A stretch of DNA of 64,000 nt, from contig CALUJY010000009.1 in assembly GCA_944321085.1 (NCBI GenBank), positions 1 to 64,000 of the forward strand, given 5' to 3'. Positions 24,092 through 25,808 of this stretch are shown piece after piece. Within the stretch, counting starts at the first letter, position 1, and each line of letters starts with the position of its first letter. Below the pieces are notes generated by a model. It worked only from the letters and a program-made list of their open reading frames with translations. It did no database searches and was not told where the DNA came from. Origin of the DNA: an uncultured Barnesiella sp. Its GTDB lineage: Bacteria > Bacteroidota > Bacteroidia > Bacteroidales > Barnesiellaceae_A. The translations under genes were made by a program, and so were the position numbers.

Positions 24092-24514
24092 TTAGTCTAT
24101 ATTGATGGTACGAATAGCCGGTTTTGTGGGTTCGATAGCGAGTTTAGGCAATGTTATGTAAAGCACGCCATTCTCGGTACGAGCCGATATTTCGTCTCTC
24201 TTGATGTCCTCGGGAAGGACGAAAGTCTGACGGAATAATGTGTGGCTGAATTCGTGACGCAGATAATGTTTCTCTTTGTTCTCTTCAACGGTCTTCTCCA
24301 TAGAAACTACCAACTGGTTTTCTTCGTCGATTTGTATGTTGAAGTCTTCTTTCTTGGCACCCGGGACAGCAAATTCTATTTCATATTGTTTGTCATCCTC
24401 AGAGATGTTTACAGCCGGAACGCTGTTACCGGTAGAGCGGGTGAGCCACGCATCATTGTCGAGCATTCCATAAAGAGCATCAAATACGTTGTTGAATCTT
24501 CTTGCGGGTTTCAT
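24092..24514 (-). CDS. hsp20: small heat-shock protein, Hsp20/alpha-crystallin
   Basis: 140 aa. A holdase chaperone that binds unfolding proteins. The alpha-crystallin domain runs from about residue 35 (PAVNISEDDKQYEIEFAVPG) to the conserved GVLYITLPK near 125; the C-terminal IRTINID contains the I-x-I anchor that docks neighbouring subunits. The start at 24514 is chosen because GGAGG lies 9 nt upstream; an in-frame ATG at 24529 overlaps that element, and the frame open to 24667 covers the promoter. A sigma-54-type promoter is seen upstream (24594-24608). Confidence 0.93.
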   Translation of the reverse strand: MKPARRFNNVFDALYGMLDNDAWLTRSTGNSVPAVNISEDDKQYEIEFAVPGAKKEDFNIQIDEENQLVVSMEKTVEENKEKHYLRHEFSHTLFRQTFVLPEDIKRDEISARTENGVLYITLPKLAIEPTKPAIRTINID

Positions 24515-24593
24515 AATTTTATCCTCCATTTTTGTTTTTGTTTTCTTGTTTTGTTTGGCAGGCGTCTTTTGCAACGCTTGCACTATGTATATT

Positions 24594-24608
24594 GCAAGAG
24601 ATGTGCCA
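24594..24608 (-). promoter_or_regulatory. sigma-54-type (-24/-12) promoter of hsp20
   Basis: On the minus strand the sequence reads TGGCAC, 5 bp, TTGC, then A. This is an exact match to the -24/-12 core with the GG-to-GC spacing of RpoN promoters. The start would fall near 24582, giving a leader of about 68 nt before ATG 24514. Sigma-54 needs an activator ATPase; two direct repeats lie upstream. Confidence 0.6.
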
Positions 24609-24629
24609 TAGGTGCTAAACGTGAAAATG

Positions 24630-24667
24630 CTGACATATTTAACATGTGATACTGTCAAAATTAACAT
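24630..24667. repeat. two 16-bp direct repeats upstream of the hsp20 promoter
   Basis: Copies at 24630-24645 and 24652-24667 match at 13 of 16 positions; on the minus strand both read ATGTTAAnnnTGnCAG. Their 22-bp period puts them on the same DNA face, roughly 50-85 bp before the predicted transcription start. This suits binding sites for a sigma-54 activator. Confidence 0.5.
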
Positions 24668-24806
24668 ATAAGTGACTTTTTGGCAGCATTCTTTCTCGTA
24701 TTATAAGACGCGGAATATCTGCTTTGTTTAGTGGTATGTGATGGCGGCGTTTGCGATATGGTTTTCACCGATATTCTTTTTCTATATAGGATGTCTTATA
24801 CACATC

Positions 24807-24837
24807 TTGCACTTTTGCCGGTCATTTCATACCTTTG
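24807..24837 (+). promoter_or_regulatory. promoter of the CDF exporter
   Basis: TTGC at 24807-24810, exactly 19 bp, then TACCTTTG at 24830-24837. ATG 24873 follows 35 bp later. Confidence 0.55.
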
Positions 24838-24872
24838 TGTCTATTACTGTAAGGTATAATAATGTAGAAAGT

Positions 24873-25808
24873 ATGGACTTGCATCACCATCATCATCACC
24901 ACGAAATGGCGGCTACTGCCGGGAAGACCCTCATTGTAGGTATCGTGCTGAACCTTCTTTTTGTTGTAATAGAAGCTGTGGTGGGGTTGGCTTACAACTC
25001 CTTGGGATTGTTGAGCGATGCTGGTCATAATCTGGGCGATGTATTCGGACTGATTTTGGCATTTCTGGCCTTTAAGCTCGCACAGGTAGCACCCAATCGT
25101 CGTTATACCTATGGCTACCGGAAAAGTACTATCCTTGTTTCTTTGGCCAATGCCATTATTCTGTTGGTGGCGGTAGGTGCTATCGTACTCGAAAGCGTGC
25201 GTAAGTTGCAGACGCCCGAGCCTATCGACGGTGCTGCCATCTCATGGACTGCGGGAGCCGGAATCGTAGTGAACGGGCTTACGGCGTGGATGCTTATGTC
25301 GGGGCGTAAAAACGACCTCAACATGAAAGGCGCGTTTCTGCACATGGTGGCCGATACGCTTGTTTCGGTGGGTGTGCTGCTTTCGGGTATTATCATAACG
25401 TTTACAGGTTTTACCATCATCGACCCTATTATAGGTCTTGTTATCGCTGTTGTGATATTGTTCTCTACGTGGAGTCTGCTTGCCGACAGCTTGCGCCTGT
25501 CGATGGATGGCGTGCCGCGCAATGTCGATATGGATGCTGTTGCCAAAGCTCTTGCTGCCGATGCCGATGTCCTTGGTGTGCATCACCTCCACGTTTGGGC
25601 TATGAGTACGACCGAAAACGCACTTACGGCGCATATCGTAGTGAGCGATTTGGGGTGTATGGAAGAGTTGAAACATCGTATCAAAGAGCGACTTGCTCAT
25701 GAGGATATTGCACATGCCACGTTGGAATTCGAGACCGGAAATGCCTGTCACGAGAAAGATTGCGAATGTCACGGACACGAGCATTGCCATAAGGATGCAG
25801 CTCGATAA
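24873..25808 (+). CDS. cation diffusion facilitator (CDF) metal exporter
   Basis: 311 aa with six predicted membrane helices. The motif SDAGHNLGDVFGL in helix 2 and HMVADTLVSVGVL in helix 5 supply the metal-site residues of CzcD/ZitB-type Zn/Cd exporters. The cytoplasmic C-terminal domain contains HHLHVWAMS. Both ends carry metal-binding tails: seven consecutive histidines at residues 4-10 and a Cys/His-rich end (CHEKDCECHGHEHCH). Substrate is probably zinc, judged from the family and the tails. The start at 24873 is 35 bp after a good promoter; an in-frame ATG at 24738 lies before it. Confidence 0.9.
   Translation: MDLHHHHHHHEMAATAGKTLIVGIVLNLLFVVIEAVVGLAYNSLGLLSDAGHNLGDVFGLILAFLAFKLAQVAPNRRYTYGYRKSTILVSLANAIILLVAVGAIVLESVRKLQTPEPIDGAAISWTAGAGIVVNGLTAWMLMSGRKNDLNMKGAFLHMVADTLVSVGVLLSGIIITFTGFTIIDPIIGLVIAVVILFSTWSLLADSLRLSMDGVPRNVDMDAVAKALAADADVLGVHHLHVWAMSTTENALTAHIVVSDLGCMEELKHRIKERLAHEDIAHATLEFETGNACHEKDCECHGHEHCHKDAAR

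Follow-up and report, generated by a model that had tools for sequence, protein, structure and literature searches.

Promoters read by sigma-54 need an enhancer-binding activator, and the activators of the PspF type lack a receiver domain and combine an AAA+ domain with a Fis-type helix-turn-helix (HTH). Bacteroidota are a major gut phylum in which the control of heat-shock genes is poorly known, and the papers found name no regulator of the phylum's heat-shock genes. The 5'-end map of Flavobacterium psychrophilum placed sigma-54 promoters before groES-groEL, lon, dnaK, grpE-dnaJ, htpG, and clpB (PMC9723704). An in silico survey reported that predicted Bacteroidota sigma-54 targets are enriched in chaperones, among them the small heat-shock family COG0071 (PMC12316311). 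The small heat-shock gene ibpB of E. coli is transcribed by sigma-54 as well (PMC4370416). Promoters of this type, and their association with chaperone genes, are already known in the phylum (PMC9723704, PMC12316311), and the newer parts of this analysis are the anatomy of an hsp20 promoter, a dyad shared among chaperone operons, and a named candidate for the activator.

The locus lies in a 64,000-nucleotide stretch of an uncultured Barnesiella sp. (the window). The system shares with the sigma-54 motif SM4 of F. psychrophilum, a member of the same phylum, -24/-12 promoters before groES-groEL, grpE-dnaJ, and htpG, although 5' ends were mapped there and the promoters here were read from sequence alone (PMC9723704). 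The gene pair of a sigma-54 activator and lptE also occurs in F. psychrophilum, as an SM5 promoter target (PMC9723704). Table 2 of that study does not include hsp20, and no activator or activator sites were assigned to its chaperone cluster (PMC9723704), whereas here hsp20 is a predicted target with conserved upstream dyads, in Bacteroidales. The survey made position-weight predictions by COG, and its available part holds no hsp20 promoter anatomy, upstream sites, or activator (PMC12316311). We did not rely on its statement about sigma-54 control of B. thetaiotaomicron chaperones, for which the reference given is, by title, a Blattabacterium paper. E. coli ibpB resembles hsp20 as a small heat-shock gene under sigma-54 (PMC4370416), but ibpAB is also transcribed by sigma-32, while the chaperone set studied here shows sigma-54-like promoters as a whole.

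The hsp20 product contained an HSP20/alpha-crystallin domain (PF00011, E 1.4e-22), and a GGAGGA ribosome site preceded the gene. Because the gene caller merged the hsp20 and htpG leaders into long frames, we adopted the starts MKPARRF and MQKGTIG, respectively. Reading towards hsp20, the leader contained TGCCAAAAAGTCA, ATGTTAATTTTGACAG, ATGTTAAATATGTCAG, and then TGGCACATCTCTTGCA (Table 1). The predicted transcription start would give a leader of ~68 nt, and an AG-N-G block was kept at this position, AGTG in our species and AGCG in the others. Divergent from hsp20, positions 24738-25808 encode a cation-efflux-like protein whose start is rich in histidine, and at least two relatives (L042, L045) have a similar stretch of many His codons next to hsp20.

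Table 1. Features of the hsp20 locus, in window coordinates; site centres are relative to the predicted transcription start.
Feature	Positions	Strand	Description
hsp20	24092..24514	minus	140 aa (MKPARRF...) plus stop codon; ATG at 24514
Predicted transcription start	24581..24583	minus	from sigma-54 geometry, ~12 nt after the -12 C
Sigma-54 -24/-12 element TGGCACATCTCTTGCA	24593..24608	minus	exact GG-N10-GC spacing
Upstream site 2, dyad TGTTAAATATGTCA	24631..24644	minus	centre ~-56
Upstream site 1, dyad TGTTAATTTTGACA	24653..24666	minus	centre ~-78
Probable third upstream site TGCCAAAAAGTCA	24673..24685	minus	centre ~-97
16-mer repeat ATGTTAATTTTGACAG	24667-24652	minus	22 bp start to start with ATGTTAAATATGTCAG
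16-mer repeat ATGTTAAATATGTCAG	24645-24630	minus	

The TGGCAC-N5-TTGCA that a preliminary description had reported before hsp20 is there, as the only match in the window against 0.04 expected from dinucleotide shuffles; the window's three other matches to the shorter TGGCA-N6-TTG were all intragenic. Genome-wide, TGGCAY-N5-TTGC had 27 matches compared with 14 for a reversed control pattern, and nearly all were intragenic, with only those of hsp20 and htpG clearly intergenic and correctly oriented. A match to the -24/-12 consensus is therefore thin evidence by itself and no proof. The hsp20 element rises above chance because it is conserved across the genus. The family is represented by one genus with nine genomes (our own and eight relatives), and all eight relatives had hsp20 orthologues of 55-63% identity. 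After each locus was set in the same orientation, TGGCAY-N5-TTG[A/C]A (TGGCAYA-N4-TTG[A/C]A) was present in 9/9 orthologous promoters, at distances from the -24 to the ATG that varied from 93 to 175 bp. Among the nine, only our species had the -12 TTGC of the textbook; the other eight had TTGA (GG-N10-GA). Another element in our genome, TGGCATTAACTTTGC (L034, G000:C13:29521-29535), precedes the gene of a predicted 162-aa protein by 133 bp. We set it aside as a sigma-54 candidate since it overlaps the box TAACTTTG, and the locus may be a main-sigma promoter.

The two 16-bp repeats described earlier as direct repeats 22 bp apart are present, and they were each other's sole matches in the window even with one mismatch allowed (2 vs 0.25 expected), but they are imperfect dyads and not plain direct repeats, better read as TGNYA-N3/4-TGNCA. 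The 14 bases of site 1, TGTTAATTTTGACA, were identical in 9/9 species, with a second dyad 22 bp further on, and TGTTAANNTTGWCA had a single match in our genome, at this site of the hsp20 leader. In all nine species, site 1 began 58-59 bp upstream of the -24 T, and site 2 began 36-37 bp upstream of it. Such paired sites at a fixed spacing favor the earlier suggestion that the repeats are placed as activator sites would be. The probable third site is similar to sites 1 and 2, and a block like it occurred at the same place in relatives, with less strict conservation; the three centres are near two helical turns apart. A clean contrast between hsp20 and genes with TAnnTTTG promoters, as the preliminary description had drawn it, did not hold up: site 1 itself includes TAATTTTG, a perfect TAnnTTTG box.

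Our genome encodes a complete RpoN with all three sigma-54 domains (AID, CBD, and DBD), and rpoN was found in 8/8 relatives, so the proposal did not founder on a missing sigma factor. Similar elements preceded other chaperone operons of the genus, with TGGCAA-N5-TTG[T/C] in 9/9 grpE leaders, TGGCATTTTTTTTG[C/T] in 8/8 htpG leaders, and TGGCA[C/T]-N4-TTTGG in 8/8 groES leaders. The groES element is the loosest of the four operons and needs TGGT as its -12 (GG-N10-GT); together with the TTGA of most hsp20 orthologues, this indicates a -12 looser than the textbook element. Three sets of leaders taken as controls had no such element: those of the activator gene (0/7), of rpoN (0/9), and of a second hsp20 paralogue (0/8). 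Beyond the genus, three hsp20 loci located by protein similarity carried GGGCACGATGCTTGC (a Bacteroidaceae MAG), TGGAACTGAATTTGC (a Dokdonia MAG), and TGGAACTGCTTTTGT (another Bacteroidetes MAG), all with GG-N10-GC or -GT and 95-126 bp before the ATG. Hsp20 thus appears to belong to a wider sigma-54 chaperone regulon with groES-groEL, grpE, and htpG. Just upstream of htpG, our genome contained TGGCATTTTTTTTGC (L031, G000:C12:10218-10232), which was kept in the seven relatives with a readable htpG leader.

Dyad-like blocks were also found before the other operons: GYCAAAATGTCAG for htpG, CTGCCATTTTGTCC for groES, and TGACTTTATGACA for grpE in 8/9 genomes. In the 120 bp that precede the -24, 34/34 promoters of the genus had a block matching TGNCA-N3/4-TGNCA at 7/8 or better, compared with 10-15% of dinucleotide shuffles, and so did 6/7 groES promoters of other families. 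This score supports, and does not prove, a common binding site, since the motif had been spotted in the same data before they were scored and the orthologues cannot count as independent cases. The dyad was only partly alike between operons and poor in the grpE leader of our own genome, and in htpG and groES these sites are nearer to the promoter than is usual for enhancers.

A search for sigma-54 activators, which the preliminary description had called for, returned three in our genome, each with PF00158 and HTH_8. Two bear receivers (contigs C16 and C10), and the third is a receiver-less protein of 419 aa encoded directly upstream of lptE (G000:C3). The latter contained the sigma-54 interaction AAA+ domain (PF00158, E 4.8e-65) with a GAFTGA loop in its translation, and a Fis-type HTH at residues 375-416 (PF02954, E 3.4e-12). 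In this it is like the PspF type, and it differs in that ~110 residues separate the AAA+ lid from the HTH, and in its linkage to lptE-secG rather than psp genes. In 29/29 loci of the order whose contig reached far enough to judge, the activator gene immediately preceded lptE. It was not found in two relatives, and a gap in these two drafts is the likelier cause because lptE, present in 33/35 genomes, was missing from the same two. Given that sigma-54 promoters need an activator, the lptE-linked gene is the best candidate, and its product would be the likeliest activator of hsp20.

The presence of TAATTTTG in site 1 of 9/9 species raises a different reading of the leader, in which the main sigma factor (sigma-ABfr type) serves hsp20 from this -7 box and TGGCAC-N5-TTGCA is coincidental or a minor second promoter. 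The identity of site 1 over 14 bases in all nine species would suit a promoter box too, but conservation extends beyond both edges of the box (TGT...ACA), and in 4/9 species the box of site 2 is broken (TAAATATG in our own and TAATTTG in three) with the dyad intact. Nor was a conserved TTTG-type -33 element seen upstream in the hsp20 leaders, and the conserved TGGCA-N6-TTG with its fixed distance would be left unexplained. We regard this reading as unlikely, though a sigma-54 promoter and an overlapping main-sigma promoter could coexist at hsp20.

Two other readings were considered. The promoter may be sigma-54-dependent with one of the receiver-bearing activators on C16 or C10 acting in place of the lptE-linked protein; both are present in our genome, with the C16 gene ~13 kb from rpoN. 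In five relatives that share this promoter and its sites, the lptE-linked activator is nonetheless the sole one at E<=1e-40, and we consider this assignment quite improbable. Alternatively, the dyads could be sites for a common type of stress regulator, a repressor or activator with no relation to sigma-54, with the TGGCA element forming part of the site array, a reading that the closeness of the htpG and groES dyads to the promoter would fit, as repressor sites often lie there. The GG-N10-G spacing is, however, kept before four operons and in distant members of the phylum, and the element agrees with published sigma-54 promoters, based on 5' ends, for three of these genes (PMC9723704). This leaves an ordinary regulator as a very improbable explanation.

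The reading we favor combines a working sigma-54 promoter, an activator bound at the dyads that is most likely the lptE-linked one, and membership of hsp20 in a chaperone regulon, and we judge it likely to be correct as a whole. RpoN-carrying RNA polymerase would wait at TGGCAC-N5-TTGC as a closed complex, with transcription predicted to start ~12 bp downstream of the element, near 24582. Bound at the two or three dyads, a hexameric AAA+ enhancer-binding protein, most plausibly the 419-aa protein, would open this complex in response to protein-folding or envelope stress. A Bacteroidota sigma-54 chaperone regulon would then count hsp20 among its targets, along with groES-groEL, grpE, and htpG. 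The original proposal of RpoN plus an enhancer-binding protein at hsp20 gains support from the rpoN gene, the three activators, the conservation of promoter and sites in nine species, and the promoters of groES, grpE, and htpG. We give about even chances to the broader generalization that the core heat-shock regulon of Bacteroidales (hsp20, groESL, grpE, and htpG) is run not by sigma-32 or HrcA but by sigma-54 and one dedicated receiver-less activator of the lptE-secG operon at TGNCA-N3/4-TGNCA dyads. If true, the supply of chaperones would be linked to genes for secretion and the outer membrane. With fixed sites at a sigma-54 promoter and a single candidate activator conserved across the order, the question of the regulator becomes a one-gene knockout experiment.

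In several Bacteroidales families, groES-groEL followed a few genes after the activator and had its own TGGCA promoter. The order there was activator, lptE, secG, groES, and groEL (L166-L185), and groES of our genome was on another contig (C5). Between secG and groES, some of these loci (L172, L176, and L185) contained a hairpin-like TGTCAG...CTGACA and, after it, a run of T, which could provide a terminator and activator sites at once.
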